Below are positions 2,605-61,566 of a DNA stretch of 64,000 nucleotides, one piece after another (within the stretch, counting starts at the first letter, position 1; each line of letters starts with the position of its first letter). The translations under genes and the position numbers were made by a program. Location of the stretch: NCBI GenBank assembly GCA_021825295.1, contig JAKAHV010000009.1, positions 1-64,000 on the forward strand, written 5' to 3'. The stretch is from Nitrospirota bacterium (GTDB taxonomy: Bacteria > Nitrospirota > Thermodesulfovibrionia > Thermodesulfovibrionales > JdFR-88). The notes beneath the pieces are model-generated. The model worked only from the letters and a program-made list of their open reading frames with translations. It was not told the origin of the DNA and searched no databases.

Positions 2605-2610
2605 TATAAT
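2605..2610 (+). promoter_or_regulatory. -10 hexamer TATAAT, start codon 7 nt downstream
   Basis: A perfect TATAAT ends seven bases before ATG 2618, so transcription would begin at or next to the start codon. No -35 match and no Shine-Dalgarno sequence are visible. The same geometry recurs at other genes in this window. Confidence 0.5.
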
Positions 2611-2617
2611 AGTAACG

Positions 2618-2824
2618 ATGAAGGATGTTTTCGAGAAAAAGAAGTTTTCCGAGAGCACCGGCAAGCTTCACATCCCGTGCCCTCACAAGGATAAGTCCGG
2701 GGTTGAGGTGCATGTGGTGATAAAGGGCGGCTACTGTTACCGGTCTGACCAGTGCATGGTGCTCGATTGCAAGTACCATCGCCTGCAGTCGGACATCAAG
2801 AGCCTGCTTTCGATAATGTGGTAG
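2618..2824 (+). CDS. Small cysteine-containing protein of unknown function
   Basis: 68 aa, starting MKDVFEKKKF. I prefer ATG 2618 over the longer frame from 2561 because the extra 19 codons overlap the terminator region and the TATAAT hexamer. Four cysteines lie in CPHKDKSG, GYCYRSDQC and LDCKYH, a spacing that could bind zinc or an iron-sulfur centre. No signal peptide or membrane segment is seen. It stands alone between a terminator and the PPC-domain gene. I do not recognise the family. Confidence 0.6.
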   Translation: MKDVFEKKKFSESTGKLHIPCPHKDKSGVEVHVVIKGGYCYRSDQCMVLDCKYHRLQSDIKSLLSIMW

Positions 2825-2876
2825 GGGTTGATTAAGGCCGCAGGATGGAAGAAATTTTATTGTTCGGGGGAGACAC

Positions 2877-3311
2877 ATGAAATATCAAGCGGGCCGGACG
2901 GGAAGGGCCTTTGTGGCAAAATTCGAGGACGGGGAGGACTTTCTTCAATCCCTGGCAGGTCTCGCAAGGAAGGAAGAAATCCGCTGCGCGGTCTTTTTTC
3001 TCGTGGGCGGCGCGAAAGGCGGCAGGGTGGTCCTGGGCCCCAAAGGGGATGAGATGCCCCCGGAGCCGGTCTGGGGCGAAATAGCCGGCAACAGCGAGAT
3101 GCTCGGGACGGGCACGATATTCTGGGACGAAACCGGGCCTAAGGCCCATCTTCACATGGCCGCCGGGCGGGGCGAAAGCGTAAAAGTCGGCTGCCTGAGG
3201 GAGAAATCGAGGACTTTTCTTGTGTTGGAGGCGGTCATACTGGAAATTACGGGGATTGATGCGTCAAGGCAGGTGGACCCTGCCTCCGGTCTGGCGCTGC
3301 TCAGGCTTTAA
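2877..3311 (+). CDS. PPC (DUF296) domain protein
   Basis: 144 aa, almost all a single PPC domain (plants and prokaryotes conserved, DUF296). Visible signatures are the FFLVGGAKGG strand-turn (residues ~42-51), the HLHMAAGRG segment (~91) matching the family's conserved histidines, and the closing strand EAVILEITG. Stand-alone prokaryotic PPC proteins of this size form trimers and are often annotated as DNA-binding, though the bacterial role is unsettled. GGGGGAG sits just upstream of ATG 2877, which decides the start. It follows the small Cys gene after 52 bp and precedes a nitroreductase by 25 bp, so the two may be cotranscribed. Confidence 0.8.
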   Translation: MKYQAGRTGRAFVAKFEDGEDFLQSLAGLARKEEIRCAVFFLVGGAKGGRVVLGPKGDEMPPEPVWGEIAGNSEMLGTGTIFWDETGPKAHLHMAAGRGESVKVGCLREKSRTFLVLEAVILEITGIDASRQVDPASGLALLRL

Positions 3312-3336
3312 AAACCAATGGGAGGGGGATTTTTGA

Positions 3337-3852
3337 ATGAACGTTCTTTCCGTCATTATGGGGAGAAGGAGCATCAGGAATTTTGAGGAAAAGCCGGTTC
3401 CCCGGGAGGCCATGGACAGGCTCATAGATGCCCTGTTGTGGGCGCCGAGCGCGGGGAACCTCCAGTCGAGGAAGTTCTATTTCGTGACGGACGCCGCTCT
3501 CAGACGAAAACTCGCGATGGCCGCATATGGGCAGGCTTTCATAGCAAGGGCGCCGCTCGTCGTGGTTGCCTGCGCGGACAAGGAGGCGGTCTCGGGGAGA
3601 TACGGAAGGCGCGGCATAGATCTCTATTGTGTGCAGGACGCGACCCTTAGCGCCATGTGCATGATGCTCGAGGCCTGTGAGCTTGGTCTGGGCAGCGTCT
3701 ATGTGGGTGCCTTCAGCGAAAAGGAGGTCGGCAAGGCCCTGGGGCTGCCCGAATACATCAGGCCCGTGGCCCTCCTGCCCGTGGGCTATCCACTCATAGT
3801 GCCCGATGCGCCTGCCAGGGTGCGGGCGGAAGAAGCGGTGGTTTTCAAATGA
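3337..3852 (+). CDS. Nitroreductase-family flavoprotein
   Basis: 171 aa, the size of short nitroreductase-like FMN enzymes. The N-terminal GRRSIRNFEE matches the phosphate-binding RRS motif, WAPSAGNLQ the substrate/flavin loop, and GLGSVYVGAF with LLPVGYP the C-terminal FMN contacts. The family reduces nitro groups, quinones or related electrophiles with NAD(P)H; the substrate here cannot be read. GGGAGGGGG lies about eight bases before ATG 3337. Codon use resembles its neighbours. Confidence 0.85.
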   Translation: MNVLSVIMGRRSIRNFEEKPVPREAMDRLIDALLWAPSAGNLQSRKFYFVTDAALRRKLAMAAYGQAFIARAPLVVVACADKEAVSGRYGRRGIDLYCVQDATLSAMCMMLEACELGLGSVYVGAFSEKEVGKALGLPEYIRPVALLPVGYPLIVPDAPARVRAEEAVVFK

Positions 3853-3906
3853 GTCTCGTATCCGGGGCGGGCGCCTGTTTTTGAAGGTGGTGACCCCGGT
3901 CACAGG

Positions 3907-3931
3907 TTTTATCCCGGCTGCGGGGATAAAA
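3907..3931. repeat. Inverted repeat after the nitroreductase gene
   Basis: Nine-base arms TTTTATCCC and GGGATAAAA flank a seven-base loop, with GTGACC-CCGGTCAC just before. It could be a weak terminator for the nitroreductase gene or an operator upstream of the gene at 4016. Confidence 0.4.
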
Positions 3932-4015
3932 TCATAATGATAGGCGGGTAAATACCGGCGATGGATAAAAAATGCAGCGGGAAGTAATATGGGATTTTTT
4001 TATGAGGAGAGGTGC

Positions 4016-4576: not shown

Positions 4577-4598
4577 CGGAAACAGCAACTGATTTTTA

Positions 4599-4634
4599 AG
4601 AGGCGGGTCCCGGCCGGGACCCACCTCTGTTTTT
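4599..4634 (+). terminator. Rho-independent terminator
   Basis: AGAGG-C-GGGTCCCGG pairs with CCGGGACCC-A-CCTCT, followed by G and five T. It lies 22 bp after the stop of the Tyr/Pro-rich gene. This is one of the clearest terminators in the window. Confidence 0.85.
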
Positions 4635-4700
4635 ATATGCCCGCCGGTGTCACCCATCCAGGCGTTCTCAATAAAATGCCGGTTTTGCTTGCCTCAGAAA

Positions 4701-20339: not shown

Positions 20340-21727
20340 AGTTTCTTTAATTTTGCCATAAAAAACCCGTCCATGTCCTGGCGATGCGGATACGTCCTCA
20401 AAAAACCGTCGCTCATAAGCGGCCGCAGATATGGCGGGACATCCTCATCGAAAGCGAAACATCCCTTCATGGCCTCGAGGAAGCCCCTTATTACCATTTC
20501 ACCTTCCTCGGGCTCCGTGGAGCAGGTTGAATAGACGAGCGCGCCGCCGGTCTTGAGCGCCCTGGCGGAGGCAAAGAGCATCCGCAATTGCCTTGCGCCA
20601 AACCCGGCCAGTTCTTTTTCGCTGTGGCGGTATTTTACATCCGGGTTTCTTCTGATGACGCCCAGGGAGGAGCACGGGGCGTCTATAAGGACCCGGTCAA
20701 AGTACCCCGGCCGTGCATGAACCGGGCCGCCTTCATCCGTTATATCGGCCTCGACGGCCGAAACCGAGCGCAGCCCGAGCCGGGTGAGGTTTTCCCGGAG
20801 TTTTTGGAGCCTGCCCGGGTCGATATCGGCCGCGGTGATATGACCGGAGTCCTTCATGAGCTCGGCGATATGGGTTGTCTTGCCCCCGGGCGCCGCGCAG
20901 GCGTCAAGGATTTTTTCTCCCGGCCTGGGGGCAAGCAGAAATCCGGCCAGTTGCGCGGCCTCGTCCTGGGCCGTGCAAACAGGGTGAATAAATTCGATAT
21001 CCCGGAAGGCGACCCGCCGGGCGCTTTCTCCTCCTCCTCCTCCTCCTCCTCCTCCTATCTTTACCCCGGCCGGGCTGAATGCCGTGGGTGCGGCCTTAAT
21101 GCCCTCCCGGGAGAGCATCCGGAGGGTTTCCTCGCGGGTCTTTTTGATCGTGTTGACCCTGAGCACAAGCGGAGGGATGCGGTTGTCTGCGCGGGCAAGC
21201 GCAAGCGCATCCTCCGCGCCGAACCTGCGGATCCATCTCCCGATGAGCCATCGGGGATGGGAAGTGAGGGTGCTTATCGCGTTTATCCGGGCTGCCGCGC
21301 CGGCGGCCGGGCTTTCAGCGTCCGCCTTCAGCCTGGCAAGTTCCTCTTCGAGAGTTTTTTTGCTCCTGACAACGTTTCTGAGGACCGCGTTTACGAGCGC
21401 CGGGCTGCCGCCCCTGGAACTTTTCTCAAGATTGACCGACTCGTTGACTGCGGCCCTCTCCGGCACGCGGGTAAAGAATATCTGGTAGACCGCGAGCCTC
21501 AGGTTATCGGCCGTCCGGCTGCGCGGCGGCCTGTTTACAAATTCCGAAATCAGGTGGTCCAGGAGGCCCTTATGCCTTAAAACGCCATAGACCAGCTCCA
21601 TCAAAAAGGCCCTGTCCCTGCGGGAAAGGGCCTCCTCCAGGGGGGAAAGGGCCTCCTTGGGCAGGACCCTGCCCGTGCCTATCAGGCCCAGGGTTTCAAG
21701 CGCATCCGTGCGCGCATCGGAGGGCAT
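20333..21727 (-). CDS. rsmB: 16S rRNA m5C967 methyltransferase
   Basis: 464 aa from ATG 21727. The N-terminal ~140 residues are NusB-like (RDRAFLMELVYGVLRHKG). The methyltransferase half has the SAM motif LDACAAPGGKTTHI, catalytic motif LIDAPCSSLGVIRRNPD and second cysteine STCSTEPEEGE. It methylates C967 of 16S rRNA. A run of nine glycines encoded by a GGA trinucleotide tract interrupts the middle (~residues 224-232) where homologues vary. No Shine-Dalgarno precedes ATG 21727; TATCAT lies six bases upstream, so it may be leaderless. A start at 21796 is possible but adds an unconserved tail. First gene of the long leftward operon. Confidence 0.92.
   Translation of the reverse strand: MPSDARTDALETLGLIGTGRVLPKEALSPLEEALSRRDRAFLMELVYGVLRHKGLLDHLISEFVNRPPRSRTADNLRLAVYQIFFTRVPERAAVNESVNLEKSSRGGSPALVNAVLRNVVRSKKTLEEELARLKADAESPAAGAAARINAISTLTSHPRWLIGRWIRRFGAEDALALARADNRIPPLVLRVNTIKKTREETLRMLSREGIKAAPTAFSPAGVKIGGGGGGGGGESARRVAFRDIEFIHPVCTAQDEAAQLAGFLLAPRPGEKILDACAAPGGKTTHIAELMKDSGHITAADIDPGRLQKLRENLTRLGLRSVSAVEADITDEGGPVHARPGYFDRVLIDAPCSSLGVIRRNPDVKYRHSEKELAGFGARQLRMLFASARALKTGGALVYSTCSTEPEEGEMVIRGFLEAMKGCFAFDEDVPPYLRPLMSDGFLRTYPHRQDMDGFFMAKLKKLC
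21028..21056. repeat. Trinucleotide tract (CTC)n inside rsmB
   Basis: About 9.7 uninterrupted CTC units (GGA on the coding strand, glycine). Such tracts change length by slippage in whole codons, so rsmB would stay in frame. Confidence 0.85.
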
Positions 21728-21733: not shown

Positions 21734-21739
21734 ATGATA
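21734..21739 (-). promoter_or_regulatory. Candidate -10 (TATCAT) for the rsmB-rluD operon
   Basis: TATCAT on the minus strand ends six bases before ATG 21727. No -35 or Shine-Dalgarno is evident. It fits the leaderless pattern seen at other genes in the window but with a weaker hexamer. Confidence 0.3.
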
Positions 21740-22006: not shown

Positions 22007-23185
22007 ATGAAGAACATTGCAATCCTGGGGTCAACCGGCTCAATCGGTAAAAGTTCGCTCCAAGTGGTTGAAAAATACCCGGAGCGTTTCAGGGTGGTCG
22101 CGCTCGCGGCCTGCAAAAACCATGAACTTCTTCTGGAGCAGGCGGAAAAATTCAAGCCGCGGGTGGTTGCGCTTTCGGACCCGGAGGCGGCCCGCGCCCT
22201 CAAGGGCCGGATCAAAAACGGGCCGGCCGTTTTAAGCGGCGAAGAGGGGCTCCTGAGGGTGGCCGCTTGCGAGGGCGCCTCTTTCGTGATCTCGGCCATT
22301 GTGGGGTTTGCGGGGCTGGCGCCGACCCTGGCCGCCATAAGGGCCGGCAAGGACGTAGGGCTTGCCAACAAGGAGGCCCTGGTCACGGCGGGCGACCTGG
22401 TAATGTCCGAGGCCAAAAAATACGGCGTCAGGATACTGCCCGTGGACAGCGAGCACAGCGCGGTCTTCCAGTGCCTGAACGGCAGCGGAGAGGATTTCCA
22501 GGGCAGCATAATTCTCACCGCCTCGGGCGGCCCTTTCCTTGGCAGGCGCGCGGAGGACCTGGAGGGCGTCACCGCCAGGGAGGCGGTCAGCCACCCCAAC
22601 TGGCAGATGGGCAGGAAGATATCCGTGGATTCGGCCACCCTCATGAACAAGGGACTTGAGGTCATAGAGGCCCATCACCTCTTCAATCTGCCCGCGGAGC
22701 GGATAAGGGTCCTTGTCCACCCGCAGAGTATCGTGCATTCGATGGTGGAGTTCCCGGACGGCTCGATCATCGCCCAGCTCTCCGTGCCGGACATGAAGGC
22801 GCCTATCGCATACGCGCTTTCCTGGCCCGGCAGGCTCCCCGGGGTCATCCCTTCCCTGGACCTGACACGCTTCGAGAGGCTTTCATTCTCCAAACCCGAT
22901 ACCGGGGCTTTCCCGTGTCTGCTCTATGCCTACCGGGCGCTTAGGGAAGGCGGCACGCTTCCCGCCGTCCTGAACGCCGCGAACGAGGCGGCCGTAGAGG
23001 CGTTTCTGGCAGGGGAAATAGGGTTCAACGATATTCCTGCTATAATAAATGAAACGATGCAGTTGCACACCCGCAGGGACCTGACCGATGAGAAGCGCGT
23101 TATCGAGGCGGACTCCGGCGGGCGCAAATCCGCTTCGGTCCTCATCGAGAAAATTAAACGCGATAAAAGGAGAAAGACTTTTTGA
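22007..23185 (+). CDS. dxr: 1-deoxy-D-xylulose-5-phosphate reductoisomerase
   Basis: 392 aa, normal length. The NADPH loop is ILGSTGSIGKSSL, the metal/substrate region is PVDSEHSAVFQCL with ASGGPFLG, and SVDSATLMNKGLE and HPQSIVHSMVEF follow. It commits DXP to the MEP isoprenoid pathway. Two ATGs lie five bases apart (22002 and 22007); only the second is in frame. The Shine-Dalgarno is weak. The stop overlaps the start of rseP by four bases, a common dxr-rseP pairing. Confidence 0.95.
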   Translation: MKNIAILGSTGSIGKSSLQVVEKYPERFRVVALAACKNHELLLEQAEKFKPRVVALSDPEAARALKGRIKNGPAVLSGEEGLLRVAACEGASFVISAIVGFAGLAPTLAAIRAGKDVGLANKEALVTAGDLVMSEAKKYGVRILPVDSEHSAVFQCLNGSGEDFQGSIILTASGGPFLGRRAEDLEGVTAREAVSHPNWQMGRKISVDSATLMNKGLEVIEAHHLFNLPAERIRVLVHPQSIVHSMVEFPDGSIIAQLSVPDMKAPIAYALSWPGRLPGVIPSLDLTRFERLSFSKPDTGAFPCLLYAYRALREGGTLPAVLNAANEAAVEAFLAGEIGFNDIPAIINETMQLHTRRDLTDEKRVIEADSGGRKSASVLIEKIKRDKRRKTF

Positions 23186-28200: not shown

Positions 28201-28517
28201 GAAAGATCGCGCAGGAGTGCCAGGAGAGGTTCGGGCCGCTTCCGGACGAGGTAAAAAACCTGATACAGGTCATGTCCCTGAGGATAGCCTCCGAACGCGC
28301 GCAGGTGGCCAGGATTGAGCAGACAGGCGGCAGGGCGAGGTTTTATCTCTCCCCCGGGGCCTCCCCGCCGGTGGACGACCTTTTGAAGAGTTTTGAGGGG
28401 AGGCTGAGATTCATCCCCGACGGCTTCGAGGTATTCGTCTCCGAACGCATGGTCCTGAGGGACATCATTGCGGTGCTTCATCATTTGACAGGGGACAAGG
28501 ATTTTGTTATGTTCTAA
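25257..28517 (+). CDS. mfd: Transcription-repair coupling factor
   Basis: 1086 aa, slightly shorter than E. coli Mfd. Order: UvrB-homology N-terminal region (to ~330), RNA-polymerase-interacting CarD-like domain (LQGGDYVVHNEHGIGRF, ~420), then the helicase motor. Walker A is GDVGYGKTEVA (~574), DEEH is in LLVIDEEHRFGV (~675), and the motif after it is LTATPIPRT. RGRVGRG marks motif VI, and a TRCF C-terminal domain follows. It displaces stalled RNA polymerase and recruits UvrA. GTG 25257 is the first start after the preceding gene and its Shine-Dalgarno is poor. A low-complexity insert (SLPLKNRASLPL, ~245-285) breaks the N-terminal region. Confidence 0.95.
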   Translation: MVLLKAFNEFKKIALPSLAASARIHSLRGSAAALLLAMAARQRSGKPVLCAARRESDAQKLQRDVSFYLSLTGGNMAEVFLLPEPDGPEISGRRAEFAVSGKAPKIVIASKAALSAPLWTSGLLEDIRIQLSYPGSFERQKLEGRLTAMGYKPAPLVSLPGQFRMKGWILDVFPAGMDDPVRVEFFGDDIDSMKLFDVESQLHTKEVFRLSILPAREPDRGEPADLNNYRTFAIEDASGMPGETIVLSSLPLKNRASLPLKSGAGEDSKTSLAEAGLPEASPEASLPLAGYGLLHDERRDITELPAVVRRLRNSGAEILFVLSSPAQAERVKNILWEDGLHMPVLEPGDVPAYEGSLCATSFPGGLSAGFALGLPEGEGPSGRRPALFIVTDRELFGEKPAWKPMRKSRISGLLQTIDDLQGGDYVVHNEHGIGRFLGFARQAAQGEGAAPKTDILVIEYAEGAKIYLPLYGIEKIHKYKSPEGLKPQLDRLGGKAWERRKAKVKKRLKEIAGKLLKIYAEREVTKGFAFSPDTELHREFDDFFPYEATPDQARAIAEVKKDMEEPRPMERLLCGDVGYGKTEVAMRAAFKAVYDAKQVVVLVPTTLLCEQHFRTFSARFAAFPVRIDFASRFKPKAENRLAFEAFEKGEVDILIATHSVLRAGLSFKNLGLLVIDEEHRFGVAQKEKIKELSRGVDVLMLTATPIPRTFQMSLAGIRDMSVIETPPEERLAVKSTIAVFGRNVIREAVAAELSRGGQIFFVHNRIEDIEKVMGLLRGIFPNARIGMAHGRMKENELERVMIKFMDGELDVLLSTAIIGSGIDIPTANTIVVDRADMMGLADLYQLRGRVGRGNVAAHAWFLIPGGDIITEDARKRLEALEELNYLGAGFRVAMKDLEIRGAGNMLGAEQSGYINDLGFEMYMELMEQAVAELKGVEIREKVMPSVELKVDALIPESYIEDIALRLGFYRRIAASLDPGQLRKIAQECQERFGPLPDEVKNLIQVMSLRIASERAQVARIEQTGGRARFYLSPGASPPVDDLLKSFEGRLRFIPDGFEVFVSERMVLRDIIAVLHHLTGDKDFVMF
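28485..28513 (+). promoter_or_regulatory. Candidate sigma-70 promoter inside the end of mfd
   Basis: TTGACA (28485-28490), a 17-bp spacer, then TATGTT (28508-28513), five bases before ATG 28519. The -35 and spacing are ideal and the -10 is four of six. The transcript would start essentially at the ATG, giving a leaderless or nearly leaderless mRNA. Confidence 0.45.
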
Positions 28518-28518
28518 C

Positions 28519-29298
28519 ATGAAAAAAACGCTTTTGTCTTCCGCTTTTTTTTTGTTTTTTTCCCTTTCCCTCCTTCCGGCCGCGCCCTCGCAGGCAAGTG
28601 AACTGGGCCTGGTGAGGCCGCTTGCGCCGTATTCCGTCTTCAGCACCTTTTCCGCTTTTTCTTTACCAAAGGGCGCCAGCGCAATATCGCTTACCATCGA
28701 GCGCTCGAAAGACCCCAGTTTCTACCGGCACACCCTGGGATTTTCATACGGGATCTCAAGACGGGCGGAGCTGACGGCCGATCTTCCATACGTCGACAGC
28801 CTCGACGCCAACAGCGGATTCGAGGACTTCGGGGGCGCTTTCAAATACAGGTTTTGGGACCAGGGAAGGTACAGGCCGGCTGCGGCGGTGCTCGTTTTCG
28901 GGTATCTGCCCACGGGCCGGGACAACCTTAGCCGCGGCGGTGGGGGTGGCGGCGGCATGGCCCTGAGCCGCAAACTGGGCCCCTTCCTGGCGCATGCAAA
29001 CCTCATCTATACTGTCTCGGGCAAGGATTACCTCAAGGACGAGGTGGATTTCCTCTCCGGGCTGGAGTTCGCCGCCGCACATAATGTCCGGATGCTGGGA
29101 GAGTTCCAGTTGAGAAAGAGCGCCATCGAGAACAAGGTGGATATGGCCGAAGTGCGGTTCGGATACAGGCTTTCAAGCGGCAACATTTTCAACACCTTCG
29201 GCATCGGATTCGACCTTAAGGAGAGGCATCCGGAATTCCGGATCATCTTCTCGATAGGGGCCGCGTTTGACAGGATCGCAAGGGGCCTGCAGAGCTGA
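28519..29298 (+). CDS. Outer-membrane beta-barrel-like protein of unknown function
   Basis: 259 aa from ATG 28519, one base after the mfd stop. A signal peptide (MKKTLLSSAFFLFFSLSLLP, cut after SQA near 29) leads to alternating amphipathic strands such as SAISLTIERS, RHTLGFSYGISRRAELTADL, FEDFGGAFKYRFW and FNTFGIGFDLKERHPEFRI. The pattern resembles transporter-like or DUF3187-type barrels. A poly-glycine stretch (~140-147) sits in a predicted loop. There is no Shine-Dalgarno, while TTGACA-17-TATGTT ends five bases before the ATG. The ligand is unknown. Confidence 0.7.
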   Translation: MKKTLLSSAFFLFFSLSLLPAAPSQASELGLVRPLAPYSVFSTFSAFSLPKGASAISLTIERSKDPSFYRHTLGFSYGISRRAELTADLPYVDSLDANSGFEDFGGAFKYRFWDQGRYRPAAAVLVFGYLPTGRDNLSRGGGGGGGMALSRKLGPFLAHANLIYTVSGKDYLKDEVDFLSGLEFAAAHNVRMLGEFQLRKSAIENKVDMAEVRFGYRLSSGNIFNTFGIGFDLKERHPEFRIIFSIGAAFDRIARGLQS

Positions 29299-29344: not shown

Positions 29345-29350
29345 TATAAT
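29345..29350 (+). promoter_or_regulatory. -10 hexamer TATAAT, start codon 8 nt downstream (tatB)
   Basis: A perfect TATAAT ends eight bases before ATG 29359, with no Shine-Dalgarno between. No clear -35 is present. Predicted leaderless start. Confidence 0.5.
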
Positions 29351-29358: not shown

Positions 29359-29682
29359 ATGTTTGGCGATATCCAGGAACTGCTTGTCATCTTTGTAGTA
29401 GCCCTCCTCGTCGTAGGACCCAAGAGATTGCCGCAGTTCGCAAGACAACTCGGCAAGATCGTAGGGGAGCTTAAGCGCGCATTGATGGAGGCCCGGGTCG
29501 AAATAGACCGGGAGATCGCCTCCGAGGCCCGCAGGCAGGAAGTCCTCGCCAAAAGGACGGCGGAAGAGGCCGGCCAGGAGACTCCGGCGGTGGACCAGGC
29601 CGCGGGCGCCCCGCCAAAAGGACAGGTCCCCGGGCAGGCCGCTGAAGACCTGCGGACGGAGCATAAAGACGCAAATGGCTGA
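29359..29682 (+). CDS. tatB: Twin-arginine translocase TatA/TatB-family subunit
   Basis: 107 aa. An N-terminal hydrophobic helix (IQELLVIFVVALLVVGPKRLP) is followed by an amphipathic helix (QFARQLGKIVGELKRALMEA) and a long polar tail. GPKRLP favours TatB over TatA, but the distinction is often blurred outside proteobacteria. With TatC it exports folded, cofactor-bearing proteins carrying twin-arginine signals. Its end overlaps tatC by eight bases. TATAAT eight bases before the ATG and no ribosome site suggest a leaderless transcript. Confidence 0.88.
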   Translation: MFGDIQELLVIFVVALLVVGPKRLPQFARQLGKIVGELKRALMEARVEIDREIASEARRQEVLAKRTAEEAGQETPAVDQAAGAPPKGQVPGQAAEDLRTEHKDANG

Positions 29683-30723: not shown

Positions 30724-30753
30724 TTGACCCCCCGCAGCCCCGTATGCTAATTT
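30724..30753 (+). promoter_or_regulatory. Candidate extended -10 promoter for the HEAT/HD-GYP pair
   Basis: TTGACC, an 18-bp spacer and TGC-TAATTT (30748-30753). The start codon ATG 30765 lies 11 bases downstream with no Shine-Dalgarno, so the leader would be only about five nucleotides. Confidence 0.35.
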
Positions 30754-40731: not shown

Positions 40732-41493
40732 TTACGCCCGGATTTTATTTTCTGTGTTTTTGTTTTTCATGATGAAGCCGCCCTGCCTGCCGCCGCCTTC
40801 ATGGCCCGCATGCATCATTTTCCCGTTCCGGGTATCGCGCCTGTAGGAGTTGAACAGCTCCGGATGGCAGAAGGTGCACATGCCGGACAGCCAGATATTT
40901 TCAGCCTTCACCCCGGCTGCAAGCGCCTGAAGCCTGTTTGCGGCAGCCAGGTCCAGATATGCCTTTCCGCCCTTGATCTGGAAATAGTCCGCCCCTCCGG
41001 GGCCGGCTCCGCCGCAGCGGGCCCTGACCTCCCGCAGCACATCCATTCCAACCTCATAGCAGCAGCCCCCGATGGAGGGCCCTATTGCAATCTTCATGTC
41101 CGCGGGGCGGCTGCCGTAAAGCGCGGCCATCTTTTCGATTGCCGCCGCCAGTATCCCCTTCGCGGTGCCCCTCCAGCCCGCATGGACAGCCCCGATTGCG
41201 CCTGTTTTTTCTTCGGCAAGAAGGACCGGCACGCAGTCCGCGGTCTTGACGCCTATGGCGACGCCGCCCATGCCGGTTATTACGCCATCGGCCCCGGCCG
41301 GTGCCGCCGCCTGCTTGCCGGTCAGGGCAATTATGTCCGCGGTGTGTCTCTGGATGGGCATGAAAAGCGCGTCATCCGCTATTTCAAGAAGCCCGCAGAC
41401 GGCCTTTCTGTCCACGCCCGGGACGATGCCTGTGAAAAATGCGCGTATGCGCCCGCCGAATATGTCAGGGTATATGAGGAAACTCCGGCTCAT
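40732..41493 (-). CDS. pgeF: Peptidoglycan editing factor / multicopper polyphenol oxidase-like (DUF152)
   Basis: 253 aa, the usual YfiH/PgeF length. Signatures are KTADCVPVLL, GAVHAGWRGTAKGIL with the metal histidine, IGPSIGGCCYEVG, and MCTFCHPELFNSYRRD. Members act as purine nucleoside phosphorylases in vitro and as peptidoglycan editing factors in E. coli; which applies here is not shown. Overlaps nnrD by 29 bases. Confidence 0.9.
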   Translation of the reverse strand: MSRSFLIYPDIFGGRIRAFFTGIVPGVDRKAVCGLLEIADDALFMPIQRHTADIIALTGKQAAAPAGADGVITGMGGVAIGVKTADCVPVLLAEEKTGAIGAVHAGWRGTAKGILAAAIEKMAALYGSRPADMKIAIGPSIGGCCYEVGMDVLREVRARCGGAGPGGADYFQIKGGKAYLDLAAANRLQALAAGVKAENIWLSGMCTFCHPELFNSYRRDTRNGKMMHAGHEGGGRQGGFIMKNKNTENKIRA

Positions 41494-43027
41494 CCTTCAT
41501 CGCCTGATTGTTCTTGATGGCTTCAAGGGCGTCCTTGATCGTATCGTGGATGTCGGAGGCGAGCATCGAGTGCAGCCCGCGCTTGCAGGCGGCTATCTCG
41601 CCCGCGAGCCCGTGGGTGAAGACGGAAAGCAGGGCTGCGTCCAGAGGGTTTAACCCCTGGGCGAGGAAGCCCGCGATCATTCCGGTCAGAACGTCCCCGA
41701 CCCCGGCCTTGGCCATGCCGGGGGTGCCCGTGGGATTTATAAAAATCCTCCCGCCGGACTCCGCTATGACCGTGCGCGCCCCCTTCAGGATGACGCAGGC
41801 CCCGGTCTTTTCAGACAGCGAGGCGGCTGCGCCGAGCCGGTCTTCTTCAATCTCCTGGCCTTTCCTGCCCGTAAGCCTCCCCATCTCCCCCGGATGCGGG
41901 GTTATGATGACCGGGGCCTTGACCTCGGCCAGGACACCGGGGTCTCCTCCCAGAGCGTTCAGGGCGTCGGCGTCGAGCACCATCGGGACAGGGCAGGTCC
42001 TGACGATTTCAGGCACCAGCCTGCGGATATCGGGCGTGACGCCAAGGCCGGGTCCCATTGCAAGCACGTCCCCGCGCTCCCGGATAAAGGAGAATATGCG
42101 CTCCATGGCCCCTATCGAGATGGAGCCGTCCCTGGAGGCAAGCGGCAGTGTCATCTCGTCCAGAACGCGGGACTGAAAGACGTCCGCCACCTCTTCCGGG
42201 ATGCCCATGGTGACAAGCCCCGCGCCCGATTTCAGCGCCGCCCTTGCGCAGAGAAGCGCCGCGCCCGTTTTGCCCTTGGATCCCGCAAGCGCAAGGACGT
42301 GCCCGAATGTGTTTTTGAACGAGTTCAGCGGCCTTTCCGGCACGATGAGCGCCATCTGCCCTTTTTCGATGAGTTCGCAGGGGATCGACCGGTCATCGAG
42401 CAGCCCCCGCGGAAAACCAATATCCTCTATAAAGAGCCTGCCCGTGTGTTCGGCCCCGGGATAGAGGACGTGCCCGAGCTTCGGAAGACCGAATGTCACG
42501 GTGAAGTCCGCCCTTACCGCGGTACCCATCACCCGCCCGGTATCCGATGAGATCCCGGAGGGGATGTCCACGGAGATTATGTCCTCTCCGAAACGGTTTA
42601 TCTCCCTGATAACATCGGCGTATCTGCCGGCAACCTCCCTGCCTAGGCCGGTTCCGAATATCGCGTCTATGATCAGGGCCGCGTGAAAATCCTTCTCCCC
42701 GGGGGGCGTAAAAATGACGGGCACGCCGAATTTTTTTGCCGCCTCAAGCTGCGCCCTGCACTCCGGGCTTGCCTTTCTGGCGGTGGAGAGGAAATGCACC
42801 TTCACGTTCCATCCGCTGTTTTTCAGCAGCCTTGCCACTACAAGTCCGTCGCCGCCGTTATTGCCGCCGCCTGCTATCACGATTGTCTTTTGCGGGCGGA
42901 AAAGCTCTTTTATCCTGCCAAGGACCGAAAGCCCGGCCCTCTCCATGAGCACAAGGCCGGGGATGCCGTATTCCTCTATCGTGCGCGCATCTATCATGCG
43001 CATCTGTTCGGCGCTGGCAACTTTCAT
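41465..43027 (-). CDS. nnrD: Bifunctional NAD(P)H-hydrate epimerase / ADP-dependent dehydratase
   Basis: 520 aa. The epimerase domain (YjeF_N, ~1-215) has MERAGLSVLG, VIAGGGNNGGDGLVVARLL and SVDIPSGIS. The dehydratase kinase-fold domain (~225-500) has GSKGKTGAALL, VITPHPGEMGRLTG and GTPGMAKAGVGDVLTGMIAG. The fused enzyme repairs damaged NAD(P)H hydrates. No Shine-Dalgarno precedes ATG 43027; instead TGG-TATAAT ends seven bases upstream, so the transcript is predicted leaderless. First gene of the leftward nnrD-pgeF-CBS-tsaE-nadK-UDG-HIT-recN-ferredoxin operon. Confidence 0.95.
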   Translation of the reverse strand: MKVASAEQMRMIDARTIEEYGIPGLVLMERAGLSVLGRIKELFRPQKTIVIAGGGNNGGDGLVVARLLKNSGWNVKVHFLSTARKASPECRAQLEAAKKFGVPVIFTPPGEKDFHAALIIDAIFGTGLGREVAGRYADVIREINRFGEDIISVDIPSGISSDTGRVMGTAVRADFTVTFGLPKLGHVLYPGAEHTGRLFIEDIGFPRGLLDDRSIPCELIEKGQMALIVPERPLNSFKNTFGHVLALAGSKGKTGAALLCARAALKSGAGLVTMGIPEEVADVFQSRVLDEMTLPLASRDGSISIGAMERIFSFIRERGDVLAMGPGLGVTPDIRRLVPEIVRTCPVPMVLDADALNALGGDPGVLAEVKAPVIITPHPGEMGRLTGRKGQEIEEDRLGAAASLSEKTGACVILKGARTVIAESGGRIFINPTGTPGMAKAGVGDVLTGMIAGFLAQGLNPLDAALLSVFTHGLAGEIAACKRGLHSMLASDIHDTIKDALEAIKNNQAMKDEPEFPHIP

Positions 43028-43034: not shown

Positions 43035-43043
43035 ATTATACCA
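43035..43043 (-). promoter_or_regulatory. Extended -10 (TGG-TATAAT), start codon 7 nt downstream (nnrD)
   Basis: On the minus strand TGGTATAAT has the full extended -10 consensus. Seven bases separate it from ATG 43027. No -35 is needed for this promoter class. Predicted leaderless start. Confidence 0.6.
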
Positions 43044-49885: not shown

Positions 49886-49950
49886 GGACGCCGGGGATAA
49901 CGGCAAGGCCCGCGGGGGACACGGCCCCGGCTTTATTGGCCCGGCGTCTT
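49886..49950. terminator. Bidirectional hairpin between convergent genes
   Basis: GGACGCCGGG (from 49886) pairs with CCCGGCGTCT (to 49950) across a GC-rich loop that can also pair internally (GCCGGGG with CCCCGGC). It overlaps the last codons of the leftward pentapeptide gene. A T-run follows only on the minus side (49874-49882). Confidence 0.5.
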
Positions 49951-50610
49951 CCGGACTTTTACCCTGCCCATGTCCGCCCCCTCGAATCTTGCCCCGGCCA
50001 GGTCGGCGCCTTCGAGGTTCGCCGCGACCAGGCAGCCGTTATAAAATGCGCTTCCGCGGAGGTTTGCGCCCGAGAGCACCGCGGCGGTGAAATCCGCCCT
50101 GGTGAACTCGCAGTTTTCAAGCGCGGCCCCTGTAAAGTCCGTCCTAACGAGGCTTGCGCCGTAGGCGTTCGCTCCGGATAATCTCGCGGACTTGAAGTCG
50201 CCCGCGCCGCAGTCCGTCTGCCTCAGGTCGGCCCCCGTGAGGTCCGCCCCTGCGGCGCGCACCGCGGTCATGTTTGCAAGATGCAGTTTGGCCGCCCTGA
50301 GATCCGCGCCGGCGAGGTCGGCGCCAGGCATGTGGCAATGGGTGAGGTCCGCGCCCTCCAGCACGGCCTCCCTCAGTATCGCCCCGGTCAGATTGCAGCC
50401 GTTTAGGTTGGCCCCCGAAAGGTCGGCCCCCGTGAAATCGCATCCAGCCAGGTTTGAGCTTTCAAAATTTACGCGCTTCAGAACGGCCCCGCGGAAACTC
50501 ATCGCCGCCAGGGTAAGCCCGCTTAAGTCCGCATCCGATATGTCGTAGCCGTCCGCGGGCCTGTTTTCGGAGGCCAGATAGAGCACTTCCGGCCGGTATA
50601 TCCTGTCCAT
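49933..50610 (-). CDS. Pentapeptide-repeat protein
   Basis: 225 aa, nearly all A(D/N)LxX pentapeptides from ~residue 25 onward, for example DLSGANLNGCNLTGAIL, ADLAGADLRAAKL and ADFTAAVLSGANLRGS. This predicts a right-handed quadrilateral beta-helix of about eight coils. Such proteins can mimic DNA or act as binding platforms; no specific role is visible. There is no signal peptide. TATAAT ends six bases before ATG 50610 with no ribosome site, so a leaderless transcript is predicted. Confidence 0.9.
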   Translation of the reverse strand: MDRIYRPEVLYLASENRPADGYDISDADLSGLTLAAMSFRGAVLKRVNFESSNLAGCDFTGADLSGANLNGCNLTGAILREAVLEGADLTHCHMPGADLAGADLRAAKLHLANMTAVRAAGADLTGADLRQTDCGAGDFKSARLSGANAYGASLVRTDFTGAALENCEFTRADFTAAVLSGANLRGSAFYNGCLVAANLEGADLAGARFEGADMGRVKVRKTPGQ

Positions 50611-50616: not shown

Positions 50617-50622
50617 ATTATA
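50617..50622 (-). promoter_or_regulatory. -10 hexamer TATAAT, start codon 6 nt downstream (pentapeptide gene)
   Basis: Perfect TATAAT on the minus strand, six bases before ATG 50610. No -35 match and no Shine-Dalgarno. Predicted leaderless start. Confidence 0.5.
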
Positions 50623-56250: not shown

Positions 56251-57039
56251 CTATTTGAAACTCTCCTTTTCGGACGGGAATTCCCCTTTTTCGACCTCTT
56301 CCCGGAAGGCGCGTATCGCCCTCATCCCCTCTTCCCTCAGGTTTGCGTAGCGCTTCGCGAACCGGGGCAGGAACCGCTCGAAGAGGCCGAGCACATCGTG
56401 GAGCACGAGCACCTGTCCGTCCACGCGGGGGCCGGCCCCGATGCCTATGGTAGGGATGGCGAGGGTTTCAGTAATCCTGCCTGCAAGCTCCATCGGCACG
56501 GCCTCGATGACTGCCGCGAAGGCGCCGGCCTCCTCGAGGGCCCGGGCCTCCTCCATCAGCCTGGCGGCGGCCTTATCGCCCCGCCCCTGGACCTTGAAGC
56601 CCATGCGGTGCACCGCGTGGGGGGTAAGCCCGATATGGGCCATCACCGGTATCTCCGCGCGGGTAAAGGCCTGAACGACGGGGACGGCCTCCATGCCGCC
56701 TTCGACCTTCACCGCGTGCGCCCCGCCCTCCTTTATGAACCTTCCGGCGTTCCTGACGGCCTCCTCCGCGCTTACCTGATAAGAGAGAAAAGGCATGTCG
56801 CCCACCACGAGGGCGTTTGCAACGCCCCTTCTTGCCATCCTGGTGTGGTATATCATCTCGTCCATGGTGACCGGCAAAGTGTTTTCAAGCCCTTGCACCA
56901 CCATTGCGACCGAGTCCCCGACGAGGACGATGTCGATGCCGGCCTCATCGACCATCCGGGCAAACGGATAGTCGTACGCGGTGAGCATCGTGATCTTTTT
57001 CCCCTCGGACTTCTTCTTCAGAAGCTCCTGGATGGTCAT
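56251..57039 (-). CDS. panB: 3-methyl-2-oxobutanoate hydroxymethyltransferase
   Basis: 262 aa, standard length. Signatures are MLTAYDYPFARMVDEAG, DIVLVGDSVAMVVQG, FIKEGGAHAVKVEGG, MAHIGLTPHAVHRMGG-like and PTIGIGAGPRVDGQVLVLHD. It adds a one-carbon unit from 5,10-methylene-THF to ketoisovalerate for pantothenate, so it fits an operon otherwise devoted to folate one-carbon chemistry. Last gene of that operon, four bases after metF. Confidence 0.95.
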   Translation of the reverse strand: MTIQELLKKKSEGKKITMLTAYDYPFARMVDEAGIDIVLVGDSVAMVVQGLENTLPVTMDEMIYHTRMARRGVANALVVGDMPFLSYQVSAEEAVRNAGRFIKEGGAHAVKVEGGMEAVPVVQAFTRAEIPVMAHIGLTPHAVHRMGFKVQGRGDKAAARLMEEARALEEAGAFAAVIEAVPMELAGRITETLAIPTIGIGAGPRVDGQVLVLHDVLGLFERFLPRFAKRYANLREEGMRAIRAFREEVEKGEFPSEKESFK

Positions 57040-57043
57040 TTCC

Positions 57044-57925
57044 CTACAGCAGTCCCGCCTTCCGCATTATGACGGGGACCTTGTCCTCCATGCCGATGGC
57101 CATGATGTGTATGCCGTCGCAGATATTCTCGTCCCTGAGGCGGCGTATGTGCCTTGCGGCGATATCCATGCCGGTCTCAAGGGCCTTTTCCTTGCCCGCG
57201 GCCTTAAGCTCGTTGATGAGGTCTTCGGGCACGCGTATGCCGGGTACGTTCTTGTTCAGGAAGTTCGCCATCCCGGCGCTCTTCAGTATCACGAAGCCGG
57301 CCAGGACCTTCACCGGGAACCGCCTGGCGAAGGTCATGAACTCCTTGAACTTGTCTATATCGTATATGGCCTGGGTCTGGAAGAATTTCGCGCCGGCCCT
57401 GATCTTCTTCTCGAACTTGGCAAGCTGGGGGGCCAGCGGATTTGCCTCCGGGGTCACGACCCCGCCCTGGAAGAAATGCGTGCCGCCCTTCAGGCCGTTT
57501 CCTGCCATGTCCCTGCCGTTGTTGAGGGAGTCCACCGCCGTCAGGAGCTGGACGGATTCCAGGTCGTACACCGGTTTTGCCCCCTTGTGGTCGCCGGCCA
57601 GCACATGGTCGCCCGTCATGCACAGGACGTTTCTTATGCCGAGCACATCGGCCCCCAGGAGGTCCGATTGCAGGCCGATGCGGTTTCTGTCGCGGCATGT
57701 CATCTGCAGTATGGGTTCGGCGTTGTGCTCAAGGACTATCCTGCAGATTGCCAGCGAGCAGATGCGCATGACCGCCGACTGGTTGTCGGTCACGTTCAGG
57801 GCGTCGACCTTGTCCTTCAGGATATCTATGTCATGGTGCAGCGCCGCTATATCGGTGCCCTTCGGCGGGCCGACTTCCGCGGTCACGACGAATTTGCCTG
57901 AATTAAGCGCCTCCTGGAAGCTCAC
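57044..57925 (-). CDS. metF: 5,10-methylenetetrahydrofolate reductase
   Basis: 293 aa TIM-barrel flavoprotein. Signatures are FVVTAEVGPPKGTD with the catalytic glutamate, DALNVTDNQSAVMRI, EPILQMTCRDRN, LCMTGDHVLAGDHKGAK and AKFFQTQAIYDID. The AEVGPPKG form and lack of a C-terminal regulatory half match the acetogen and anaerobe MetF that pairs with MetV. It interconverts methylene- and methyl-THF in the Wood-Ljungdahl methyl branch. The start overlaps metV by four bases (ATGA). Confidence 0.93.
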   Translation of the reverse strand: MSFQEALNSGKFVVTAEVGPPKGTDIAALHHDIDILKDKVDALNVTDNQSAVMRICSLAICRIVLEHNAEPILQMTCRDRNRIGLQSDLLGADVLGIRNVLCMTGDHVLAGDHKGAKPVYDLESVQLLTAVDSLNNGRDMAGNGLKGGTHFFQGGVVTPEANPLAPQLAKFEKKIRAGAKFFQTQAIYDIDKFKEFMTFARRFPVKVLAGFVILKSAGMANFLNKNVPGIRVPEDLINELKAAGKEKALETGMDIAARHIRRLRDENICDGIHIMAIGMEDKVPVIMRKAGLL

Positions 57926-58587
57926 TTCTTCTTCTCCTCCCTCGCTGTCAGTTTTCTGGGTTTTACGGAGGCGGACCAGTCCTTGGCCGCGAGCGTGCCG
58001 GCCTTGAACTCCTCAAGCCTTCCGGTCTTCTCCATCCTCTCGTATATGCGGACCCACGCGCAGGGTATCTCCGCGCTGACCTCGCAGTGGCCGTCCTTGG
58101 TGCCGCCGCAGGGGCCGTTCAGTATCCCCTTGGGGCAGGTCGTGACAGGGCATATACCGCCGGTCTTGTCCAGGATGCACTCGCCGCAGAGGGAGCAGCG
58201 CTCGTCGAACATCTGCAGCCTGGTCATGTTCCCGAGGAACATGCTGTCGTTGGCGGGGTAGACCGCCTTGTCCTCGAACATCTCGACCGCGGACTGGGTG
58301 CCCGCGCCGCAGGACATCACTATTATGCAGTCGGCCTTGCCCAGCTCTTCCTTGAATTTCTTCAGCTCAACCTTCGTGCCGAGCACCTGGCAGCCCGTCT
58401 TTGCAACGAAGGCGCCCGCTACCGCGCGTCCCTCGCCCTCCAGAAGCCCCTTAAGCTCGTCGAGCTGTTCCTGCCCGCCCGTGCCGCAGAGCGTGGCGCA
58501 CTCCGAGCACCCGAGCAGGAAGAAGCTCCTGTATCCCTTTACGTTCTCCAGAAGTTCTTTCCGGTCTTTTTTCTGAGTTATGATCAT
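57922..58587 (-). CDS. metV: MetV-type methylenetetrahydrofolate reductase partner, cysteine-rich
   Basis: 221 aa. The N-terminal half has LGCSECATLCGTGG and ADCIIVMSCGAGTQSAVEMF. The C-terminal half has CSLCGECILDKTGG, CPVTTCPKGILNGPCGG and HCEV, a zinc- or Fe-S-binding pattern typical of the MetV / MTHFR C-terminal family. In acetogens MetV joins MetF and links methylene-THF reduction to other electron carriers. Here the four-base overlap with metF supports a complex. The electron donor is not identifiable. Confidence 0.88.
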   Translation of the reverse strand: MIITQKKDRKELLENVKGYRSFFLLGCSECATLCGTGGQEQLDELKGLLEGEGRAVAGAFVAKTGCQVLGTKVELKKFKEELGKADCIIVMSCGAGTQSAVEMFEDKAVYPANDSMFLGNMTRLQMFDERCSLCGECILDKTGGICPVTTCPKGILNGPCGGTKDGHCEVSAEIPCAWVRIYERMEKTGRLEEFKAGTLAAKDWSASVKPRKLTAREEKKK

Positions 58588-58603
58588 CTCGACAAAACCT
58601 CCT

Positions 58604-59506
58604 TTACCTGATGCCCGCTTTGGCCGAAAGCACGGTGTTCTTCATGAGCATCGTAATCGTCATGGGCCCCACGCCTCCGGGCACGGGGGTGATCGCCCCG
58701 GCTACTTCCCTGGCCGCCTCGAAGTCCACGTCGCCCTTGAGGATGGGGACCATCCTGCCGGTCTTCTCGCTCTTTTTTTCGCCCACCCGGTTTACGCCCA
58801 CATCTATCACGCAGGCCCCGGGTTTTATCCACCCCGGCTTCACAAGGCCCGGCACGCCGGCGGCCACGATAAGGATGTCCGCGCGCCTGCAGTGCGCCTC
58901 CATGTCCCTGGAGCCGGTATGGACGACCGTGACCGTGGAGTTTGCGCCTTTCCCCTTCTGCATCATCATGATGGCGATGGGCTTGCCCACTATGTTGGAA
59001 CGCCCGACAACCACGACCTCCGCCCCCGATGTGGCAACGCCGGAGCGCACTATAAGCTCCTGTATGCCGGCCGGGGTGCAGGGAGAAAACCTCGCCTCCG
59101 AGCCTCCGATTACGAGCCTGCCGATGTTCACCGGATGGAAGCAGTCCACGTCCTTGTCCGGGTCGATTGCGTTTAAGACCCTTTTTTCGTTGATGTGCTT
59201 TGGAAGCGGCAGTTGCACGAGGATGCCGTGTATCTTCGGGTCCCTGTTGTATTTATCGACGAGGGAGAGCAGGTCGGCCTCGGAGATGTCCTCCGGCTGG
59301 TCGTCCTGGATGGAATAAAAGCCCAGTTCGTGCGCGGTCTTCTGCTTGCCCGTAACATAGCTTACAGAGGCAGGGTTCTTGCCCACCAGTATGGTCACCA
59401 GGCCGGGGACGACCCCGTGCTTATCCTTCATCAGGGCGACTTCCTTCTTCAGCTCCTCCCGTATCTCGGCCGCTATTTCGTTGCCGTTGATTATCTTTGC
59501 CGCCAT
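58604..59506 (-). CDS. folD: Bifunctional methylene-THF dehydrogenase / methenyl-THF cyclohydrolase
   Basis: 300 aa. Signatures are VGKNPASVSYVTGKQKTA with the conserved Tyr and Lys, GILVQLPLPKHIN, VVVGRSNIVGKPIAIMM and PGGVGPMTITMLMKNTV. It converts methylene-THF to formyl-THF, the step before metF in the methyl branch. AAGGAGGT lies eight bases before the ATG. It is 17 bp upstream of metV. Confidence 0.95.
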   Translation of the reverse strand: MAAKIINGNEIAAEIREELKKEVALMKDKHGVVPGLVTILVGKNPASVSYVTGKQKTAHELGFYSIQDDQPEDISEADLLSLVDKYNRDPKIHGILVQLPLPKHINEKRVLNAIDPDKDVDCFHPVNIGRLVIGGSEARFSPCTPAGIQELIVRSGVATSGAEVVVVGRSNIVGKPIAIMMMQKGKGANSTVTVVHTGSRDMEAHCRRADILIVAAGVPGLVKPGWIKPGACVIDVGVNRVGEKKSEKTGRMVPILKGDVDFEAAREVAGAITPVPGGVGPMTITMLMKNTVLSAKAGIR

Positions 59507-59569
59507 TACAAAAGACCTCCTTGGGTTTTATTGATTGATTTTTAACTTTTCATGAACGAATAGAAGTCA

Positions 59570-60130
59570 TCAGCCGCGCCTGCCCACAAGCGAGAGCATC
59601 TCTTCCCTCGTCGTGGCCCTGCTCCTGAATATGCCGCGCACCGCGGACGTGATGGTCCTTGAGCCCGGTTTCTTTATCCCCCGCATGTTCATGCAGAGGT
59701 GCTCGGCGTCTATTATGACCATCGTCCCCTTGGGCCTTACCCGCTCCATTATCAGGTCCGCAAGCTGGGAGGTGAGCCTCTCCTGCACCTGCGGACGGTT
59801 GGCGAAATGTTCGAGGGCCTTCGCCAGCTCGCTCAGCCCGACGATCCTGCCCTCGGGAATGTAGGCTATGTGCGCCTTGCCGATGAAGGGCAGCAGATGG
59901 TGTTCGCAGACCGAGTAAAAAGGGATGTCTTTCAGCAGGACCATCTCGTCGTGCGACTCCCCCTCGATGGGCTTCAGAAGCTCCTCGGAGGGCGTCTTCA
60001 GGCCGGAGAATATCTCCTCGCACATCCTGGCCACCCGCTCCGGGGTCTTTCTCAGCCCGGGACGGTCCAGGTCTTCCCCGATGCCCTCCAGAAACAGGCT
60101 GACGGCTTTTTTTATCTTCTCTGCGTCCAT
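59570..60130 (-). CDS. folE: GTP cyclohydrolase I
   Basis: 186 aa from ATG 60130, which sits 19 bases inside the upstream cyclo-ligase gene; the longer frame is a shadow of that gene. Zinc ligands are in [21 protein letters not shown] and [21 protein letters not shown] and [12 protein letters not shown] match the family. It makes dihydroneopterin triphosphate, the first step of THF synthesis. It supplies the cofactor used by the rest of this operon. Confidence 0.95.
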
Positions 60131-60729
60131 TGGTCTTCTCCCCCGCCTTCGGCGGCAATCCTGATCGTCCTTTCCTCGGTTATGATCCAATCCATGCGTA
60201 TGTCGTGGGGCGCCATCGGCACTTTGCCCTCGTATATCTGGGCCTCGTAGGCAAGGGCGACCAGCGGGACCGGCCTGGCGCGCCGCGCAAGGAGCTTGTC
60301 ATAATACCCCTTGCCGTAGCCGAGCCTGCCTCCGGAGAGGTCAAAGGCCACACCCGGTACGATCACTATATCCGCCTCGTCTATCCCGGCTGCCGGCTCA
60401 TCGCCTGCCGGCTCGGGTATTCCCATGAACCCCCTGGGCAGCCCGGCTGTGCCCGTGACGCGGTAGAGCTTCAGCTCCGGCCCCTCCACCCTGGGGAGGA
60501 TCACCTTTTTCCCCTCGTCAAGCGACTCCTCGATAAGCGAAAGCGTATCCACTTCATCCCTGAAGGACGCGTAGAAGAGCACGGTGCCCGCTTTTTTAAA
60601 GATATCCAGCGCACGGAGCCTCTGCCTGACGGCCCGGTCCATGCCGGCCTTTCCGGCAGGGCTGATGAGCCTCCTTCGCTCAAGCGCAAGCGCCCTTATT
60701 TCCTTTTTGCCCAGCTTGCTTTGGTCCAT
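60112..60729 (-). CDS. 5-formyltetrahydrofolate cyclo-ligase
   Basis: 205 aa. The family pattern is [16 protein letters not shown] at the N-terminus, [30 protein letters not shown], and the motif [24 protein letters not shown] that binds ATP and folate. It returns 5-formyl-THF to methenyl-THF using ATP. An extra C-terminal tail (~185-205) overlaps folE. It is 12 bp after cooC. Confidence 0.92.
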
Positions 60730-60741
60730 TTGCCCCGCGAT

Positions 60742-61527
60742 TCAGCGGCCGATACGCTTTTCAATCTCTTCCTTTATCCTGCCCGCCTCCTGCCGCAGCT
60801 TTTCCGAGACGAGGTAAGGCGCCTGCCCCTTGATGTCCGCCTCTATGACAAGAGGGTCGTAGCTCAGGGACCCCACGATCTCGACCCCCTCCAGCGCGCT
60901 TTCGATGAACTGCAGGTCCGCGGCGGATTTTACCTTGTTTGCCACGGCAAAGACCCTCTCGACGCCAAGGCCGATGGCCATGTCGCGGACCGCGCGCGCG
61001 GTCTGAAGGCTCCTTTGTCCCGGCTCCACAACGACGATGAAGGCGTTTACGCCCTGGGCGGTACCCCTCGTGAGGTGCTCTATGCCGGCCTCCATGTCTA
61101 TGACCACCACTTCGTCTCTCTCGGTCACCAGGTGTTTCAGGAGCCTTCTTAGCAGGACGTTTTCCGGGCAGTAGCAGCCGGAGGCCGCTTCCTTCGATTT
61201 TCCCGTAACCAGGAGGACTATGTTGTCTCCGTCAAGCCTCAGGCCGAACTCCTCCGGGATGTCGTCAACCCTTGGGTTCAACTTGTAAAGGCCTCCGGGC
61301 GCGCCCGGTCTCTGGCCGGTCCTCTCCTCTATGAGCAGGGGCATCTCGGCGATGGGTTTCAGGGACGCAATCCTGCCGGCGGGCACTCCCAAGGCCGATG
61401 CCAGGTTTGCGTCGGGGTCCGCATCGATTGCCAGGACTTTCCTGCCTTCCCGGCCGTAAAGCCAGGCCAGTGTCGCCGAAAGGGTGGTCTTGCCCACGCC
61501 TCCCTTGCCGGTCACAGCTATTTTCAT
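60742..61527 (-). CDS. cooC: CooC/AcsF-type nickel-insertion ATPase
   Basis: 261 aa. Deviant Walker A is GKGGVGKTTLS (residues 7-17), followed by VLAIDADPDANLASALG and VVVIDMEAGIEHLTRG. The CxC metal site is in ASGCYCPENVLLRR. Long KLNPRVDDIPEEFG and GDNIVLLVTGKSKEA segments match CooC rather than MinD. It would mature CO dehydrogenase/acetyl-CoA synthase, consistent with the folate genes downstream. No Shine-Dalgarno; a promoter with TTGACA and TATAAT ends eight bases before the ATG, so a leaderless mRNA is predicted. First gene of the operon. Confidence 0.92.
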   Translation of the reverse strand: MKIAVTGKGGVGKTTLSATLAWLYGREGRKVLAIDADPDANLASALGVPAGRIASLKPIAEMPLLIEERTGQRPGAPGGLYKLNPRVDDIPEEFGLRLDGDNIVLLVTGKSKEAASGCYCPENVLLRRLLKHLVTERDEVVVIDMEAGIEHLTRGTAQGVNAFIVVVEPGQRSLQTARAVRDMAIGLGVERVFAVANKVKSAADLQFIESALEGVEIVGSLSYDPLVIEADIKGQAPYLVSEKLRQEAGRIKEEIEKRIGR

Positions 61528-61535
61528 GAGAAAAA

Positions 61536-61566
61536 ATTATAACATTGTATAAGGCATTGTTGTCAA
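61536..61566 (-). promoter_or_regulatory. Sigma-70 promoter of the cooC-panB operon
   Basis: On the minus strand, perfect TTGACA (61561-61566) and perfect TATAAT (61536-61541) are separated by 19 bp. Eight bases separate the -10 from ATG 61527, which puts the predicted start point at or within two bases of the ATG. Confidence 0.65.

Follow-up and report, generated by a model that had tools for sequence, protein, structure and literature searches.

The 64,000-nucleotide (nt) stretch of DNA analysed here, hereafter the window, is part of a contig (JAKAHV010000009.1, C42 in our numbering) of a Nitrospirota bacterium of the order Thermodesulfovibrionales, whose assembly (GCA_021825295.1) holds 2.89 Mb in 65 contigs, is 91% complete and has a GC content of 58%. 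Five start codons in it are preceded, at a distance of a few bases, by the promoter-like hexamer TATAAT, in a position that would leave the mRNA little or no leader. If Nx stands for x nt between the end of the box and the start codon, the spacers are N7 (start codon at 2618), N8 (29359), N7 (43027), N6 (50610) and N8 (61527), and none of the five starts has a Shine-Dalgarno (SD) match of at least 4 nt ending 4–12 nt before it. Our recount thus agrees with a preliminary description of this DNA, which had listed the same boxes and proposed that they give rise to leaderless mRNAs.

All five genes behind these boxes are predicted to be leaderless. The box at 2605–2610 (plus strand) precedes a small conserved Cys protein of 68 amino acids (2618–2824, plus strand) with several Cys and His residues, which matches neither a Pfam nor an NCBIfam entry at E 0.001, has matches in 29 of 61 genomes from the order, its own included, and is possibly an undescribed small family. 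That at 29345–29350 (plus strand) precedes tatB (29359–29682, plus strand; TIGR01410, above cut-off), and that at 43035–43040 (minus strand) precedes nnrD, the NAD(P)H-hydrate dehydratase/epimerase gene (41465–43027, minus strand; TIGR00196 and TIGR00197, both above cut-off). The fourth, at 50617–50622 (minus strand), belongs to a pentapeptide-repeat protein (49933–50610, minus strand; seven stretches of PF00805; the protein as such scores above the cut-off of the Alr5209 family), whose ortholog was absent from the one sample in which it was sought. The last, at 61536–61541 (minus strand), is separated from its ATG by an all-pyrimidine spacer and has a TTGACA 19 nt upstream, beyond the usual 16–18; it precedes a P-loop ATPase (60742–61527, minus strand; PF01656). 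The name cooC, given to this gene earlier, was supported by no family model in Pfam/NCBIfam-type searches, and we refer to it as the cooC-like ATPase. It heads a same-strand run of folate and C1 genes (56251–61527, minus strand), with a 5-formyltetrahydrofolate cyclo-ligase, folD, a methylenetetrahydrofolate reductase-like gene (57044–57925, a weak best family match) and panB.

Gene calls and thresholds

Gene starts were studied in 864 kb of the genome (the window and 800 kb more), where our script called 740 genes; it picked starts on the coding score and the start codon alone and took no account of SD or promoter sequences. A neighbour and 100 nt of upstream sequence were available for 726 of them: 398 have a gap of at least 40 nt (gap genes), 271 are tight, meaning on the same strand as the preceding gene and less than 20 nt from it, and the other 57 were unused. 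A box was called TATAAT-like if it kept TA...T with at most one mismatch, and a looser variant, TAnnnT, was also counted; the number expected at N5–9 was taken from N20–59, and an SD match is again at least 4 nt. Comparison samples range from 150 to 864 kb and were all run with the identical script; that of Escherichia coli consists of six 50-kb stretches and that of Deinococcus radiodurans is plasmid MP1. Other genomes of the phylum are given by number. A pattern for the anti-SD sequence, TGGATCACCTCCTT, occurs in eight of 61 genomes from the order and nowhere in the assembly studied here. As draft assemblies can be missing their 16S genes and the pattern would overlook a variant end, the misses were left uninterpreted.

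The box before gene starts across the genome

The pattern TATAATN{4,10}ATG occurs six times in the window against a mean of 1.00 in shuffled sequence (none of 100 shuffles reached six), the sixth match, at 23041, falling within the dxr reading frame (22007–23185). In the whole genome the same pattern is found 160 times against 39 for its reverse, and TATAAT-N5-9-ATG 120 times against 26. Raw counts taken regardless of gene starts were judged too blunt, and positional profiles on called genes were used instead. Among the 398 gap genes, 33 carry a TATAAT-like box at N5–9 where 10.8 are expected (2.15 per position); the boxes are spread as 7, 7, 8, 7 and 4 from N5 to N9, a sharp peak at the called starts. 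The preliminary description had suggested counting the box genome-wide against shuffled controls, and this comparison came out positive, since shuffles of the 30 upstream bases that keep dinucleotides gave a mean of 6.2 and a maximum of 15 in 300 runs. For TAnnnT the counts from N5 to N9 were 12, 21, 14, 11 and 10, where 5.9 per position are expected. When all hexamers at N5–9 are ranked, SD hexamers lead and TATAAT is the top one not resembling SD; among the 214 SD-less genes it ranks first of all (15 against 0.75). The excess over baseline amounts to 5.6% (TATAAT-like) to 9.7% (TAnnnT) of the gap genes. Tight genes of the same genome show none for the TATAAT-like box (2/271 against 1.9 expected), and boxes stand before 21 of 148 divergent genes and 12 of 250 co-directional genes with a gap.

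Boxes and SD sites tend to exclude one another, with an SD match in only 2 of the 33 boxed genes but in 182 of the 365 other gap genes, and in 42 of 60 genes whose only box lies at N22–50. As a control for competition for space, genes with other AT-rich hexamers at N5–9 were scored as well, and 29 of 109 have an SD match.

As for accompanying promoter elements, a −35 element (at least five of six bases of TTGACA, spacer 16–18) is present at 5 of the 33 boxed genes and at 11 of 63 boxes at N22–50, and at 0 of 33 when wrong spacers are used. A pyrimidine occupies −1 in 53 of 79 pooled boxed cases against 389 of 755 others (p 0.009); the latter are made up of SD genes (159 of 348) and SD-less genes (230 of 407), and the contrast with SD-less genes is smaller. 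G at −14, found in 44 of the 79 pooled cases against 54 of 122 boxes at N22–50 and 10 of 26 within-gene controls, hints modestly at extended −10 boxes.

Conservation in orthologs and other genomes

Comparison of our genome with the G146 sample gave 190 reciprocal-best pairs, of which 98 were dropped for starts that disagree by more than three residues near the N-terminus and 51 for a gap below 40 nt in our genome, leaving 41. Within these, the box is retained in four of seven orthologs of boxed genes and found in none of 34 orthologs of boxless ones (Fisher p 3.5e-4), and one retained pair combines a GTG start with an ATG start, both at N5.

Four of the five genes in the window could be followed more widely. 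For the cooC-like ATPase, 45 of 80 loci gave a match and five were dropped; TAnnnT is found at N5–9 in 27 of the 40 usable starts of other genomes, against 3 to 9 in seven control windows, and of these 27 boxed starts 15 have TTGACA (at least five of six bases) at a spacer of 16–18 and 23 have TGn, that is, TG two bases before the box. With our own copy counted, the corresponding numbers are 13 of 20 for the Cys protein (controls 0–4; exact TATAAT at N5–7 in nine of the 20, and an SD match as well in three of the 13) and 11 of 30 for tatB (controls 0–3). The signal of nnrD across the wider set is discussed below; in all five same-family relatives examined, this gene has TATAAT at N6–8. Pooled over the four genes, an SD match accompanies 4 of 59 boxed starts, three of them Cys-protein starts, against 43 of 61 boxless starts. 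Because the boxless starts of nnrD and tatB mostly have an SD match (17 of 22 and 17 of 19, respectively) and, by eye, an upstream gene that frequently ends just before them, the mode of initiation seems to track gene context.

Other samples of the phylum show the excess to varying degrees. TATAAT-like boxes stand at N5–9 in 23 of 122 gap genes of G111 (2.6 expected), 27 of 305 of G146 (8.6 expected) and 11 of 76 of G052 (3.2 expected), and in 5 of 142 of G060, which belongs to a different family of the same phylum (1.6 expected). The E. coli sample has 0 in 160 genes where 5.2 are expected. D. radiodurans MP1 has 3 in 68 against 0.0, and 10 against 1.8 with TAnnnT, peaking at N6; this peak is seen with TAnnnT only, the exact pattern giving no match against one in the control. 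The exact pattern was also counted in 148 genomes of the phylum; the results, such as 85 against 1 for G111, 133 against 31 for G146 and 347 against 282 for G026, are affected by AT content. G111 differs from our genome in that its tight genes are boxed too (11/193 against 0.9 expected), and in 4 of its 29 divergent pairs both genes are boxed, with 40–88 nt between them. One divergent pair of this genome, at L192:14709–14750, has a gap of 40 nt, and either gene has a TATAAT 6 or 8 nt before its ATG.

Three further sites in the window had been put forward as weaker matches, and each has some support. The one before the ATG at 28519, far from being weak, is the most complete promoter among them all: TTGACA-N17-TATGTT with TGt before the box (28485–28513, plus strand), at N5, in the 3' end of mfd (TIGR00580) and spanning its stop codon, with identical elements and spacer kept in G146. 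It precedes a PF13557-domain protein (28519–29298, plus strand), predicted to be leaderless, that lies directly behind mfd and is 70% identical to its G146 ortholog. The site at 30724–30753 (plus strand) also has a −35 element, reading TTGACC-N18-TAATTT with TGc before the box, and lies at N11 before the ATG at 30765 of a HEAT-repeat protein; the G146 ortholog has TTGACC-N18-TAACTT-N8, and a short leader rather than a leaderless mRNA is predicted here. The third, the TATCAT at 21734–21739 (minus strand), N6 before the ATG of rsmB at 21727, has a counterpart in TATAAT at N5 in the G111 ortholog and none in that of G146.

Discussion

Our analysis points very strongly to promoters that abut start codons and that would give a minority of genes in this genome a leaderless or near-leaderless mRNA, with a leader of 0 to about 3 nt. 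We favour this as the best explanation because the positional excess, the absence of SD sites, the conservation in orthologs, the lack of a signal in the E. coli sample and the near match to the start range of RNA polymerase all agree. On the last point, bacterial RNA polymerase prefers to initiate 7 bp past the −10 element, with a range of 6 to 9 (PMC5730371, in the passages seen). As spacers of N5–9 correspond to 6–10 bp, N5 to N8 put the first base of the start codon within that range and N9 one base past it, so that a box 5–9 nt before the start would yield a transcript that is leaderless or has a leader of 1–3 nt. In such a scheme, a housekeeping-type promoter with its −10 box 5–9 nt before the start codon would be used by the main sigma factor, and RNA polymerase would start at the first base of the start codon, presumably the A of ATG, or no more than about 3 nt before it. 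An SD site would not fit on such an mRNA, and ribosomes, as in known leaderless systems, might engage the start codon directly at the 5' end. A minority of genes in the lineage would use this mode alongside ordinary SD genes, with orthologs that appear to switch mode with gene context.

Parts of the preliminary description need to be amended in the light of these results. The spacing had been given as a fixed 6–8 nt, and the actual window is 5–9. The mode had been said to be used widely, and the excess is real, at about 6–10% of gap genes in our genome and 17–24% in one relative, which is a narrower use than the word implies for our genome. It had also been assigned to the first genes of operons. 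Gap genes do show the excess and tight genes of our own genome none; nevertheless, because a box stands at the end of mfd, before 28519, because tight genes are boxed in G111 and because divergent genes are enriched, the mode seems to favour operon heads but to exceed them. The boxes at 28519 and at the tight genes of G111 would call for promoters within operons. A broader proposal, on which we are evenly divided, is that Thermodesulfovibrionia have a switchable leaderless mode reaching beyond operon heads, with promoters at the 3' ends of genes (28485–28519), back-to-back divergent pairs sharing 40–88 nt (G111), and orthologs flipping to SD or coupled starts (nnrD, tatB).

Several observations weigh against leaderless initiation as we propose it. 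A clear −35 element is missing at most of the 33 boxed genes. The exclusion between box and SD is partly mechanical, both needing the same bases. The called starts rest on our own simple gene caller, which missed tatB. With the looser TAnnnT, tight genes of our genome show 10 boxes against 6.2. The boxes at rsmB, C17:15226 and C27:76470 are not retained in G146; nnrD has TAnnnT at N5–9 in only 8 of 30 starts, our own copy counted, which is little above its controls (2–5); and G083 gives little signal (7/103 against 3.9, and 15 against 16.6 with TAnnnT). Two further points speak at the same time for the alternative that these are true promoters whose transcripts carry short leaders of about 4–12 nt, the start codon being near the 5' end rather than at it: counts in G146 are still raised past the window (4, 3 and 3 at N10–12 against 1.7 per position), which points to short leaders there, and 25 of 45 spacers of N7–9 have a purine, as a possible earlier start, between the seventh base past the box and the ATG, the other 20 having none. 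The N11 site at 30765 is of the same kind. As a general explanation, however, short leaders appear improbable, as the TATAAT-like count in our own genome falls to 1 at N10 and 0 at N11, and even at N9 a transcript begun at the preferred position would have a leader of no more than about 3 bases.

We consider it less probable still, and indeed very unlikely, that the AT-rich box is a translation signal, such as an unstructured or S1-binding non-SD site, carried on a longer transcript. AT-rich sequence does precede start codons in some phyla, for a cause that is debated (PMC5397173, in the passages seen), but what is seen here is one particular hexamer, TATAAT, joined by TGn and TTGACA where sites are conserved; the E. 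coli sample has none; and tight genes, that also need to be translated, have no TATAAT-like excess in our genome, even if those of G111 do. Chance in the AT-rich intergenic DNA of a 58% GC genome, to which one might turn because the raw enrichment in the 864 kb is only about 2-fold (28 TATAAT at N5–8, 2.0-fold over N15–40) and is common to the permuted hexamer ATAATT (1.94-fold, overlapping TATAATT), is negligible as an explanation and is ruled out by the shuffles and the conservation in orthologs.

That genes can be leaderless and have a Pribnow box at the start is established (PMC3160421 and PMC12340547, in the parts consulted), and what we describe is therefore a known way of starting genes in a lineage that is new to it so far as we found. 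Zheng et al. in 2011 (PMC3160421) described "TA-led" genes that resemble ours in having a Pribnow-like box at a short set distance, in being mostly operon-proximal and in the TAtaaT form taken in mid-GC genomes; in the part of that paper seen, Nitrospirae are not among the named groups, and eight of 20 "other bacteria" are unnamed. Unlike that set, as far as those passages describe it, some of the Nitrospirota sites precede genes that lie directly behind another gene. In Deinococcus-Thermus (PMC12340547, also seen in part), a −10 box adjacent to the open reading frame (ORF) likewise drives leaderless mRNA and a −35 element adds strength, but the box is TANNNT and serves about 30% of ORFs on average, whereas the one described here is TATAAT-like, spread over N5–9, and shows an excess of about 6–10% of gap genes; that study scanned species across the whole bacterial domain, and Nitrospirota may be among them. 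The extensive leaderless transcription of Mycobacterium tuberculosis (PMC3898074, from the excerpt available) was recognized by mapped start sites, while the Nitrospirota case is a prediction from sequence. More generally, according to a passage of PMC9581028, Lomsadze et al. 2018 used a set of 4,769 and predicted that 21.6% of the bacterial species in it have leaderless transcription.

No account of leaderless genes in Nitrospirota turned up in the literature searched, which consisted of titles and the beginnings of abstracts, with subscription papers mostly outside it, and an earlier report or a supplement might exist. In the passages seen, PMC10783764 has Nitrospirota in a table of anti-SD types, and PMC3435265 and PMC7291052 have the word "leaderless" in their reference lists only.

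With these results, a lineage known largely from metagenomes would join those that are predicted to mix leaderless and SD mRNAs. The cooC-like ATPase, nnrD, tatB and the small Cys protein offer promoters that can be traced across genera as leaders come and go. There is a practical use as well, since the box helps to place gene starts, for which programs that depend on SD sites may choose the wrong position.

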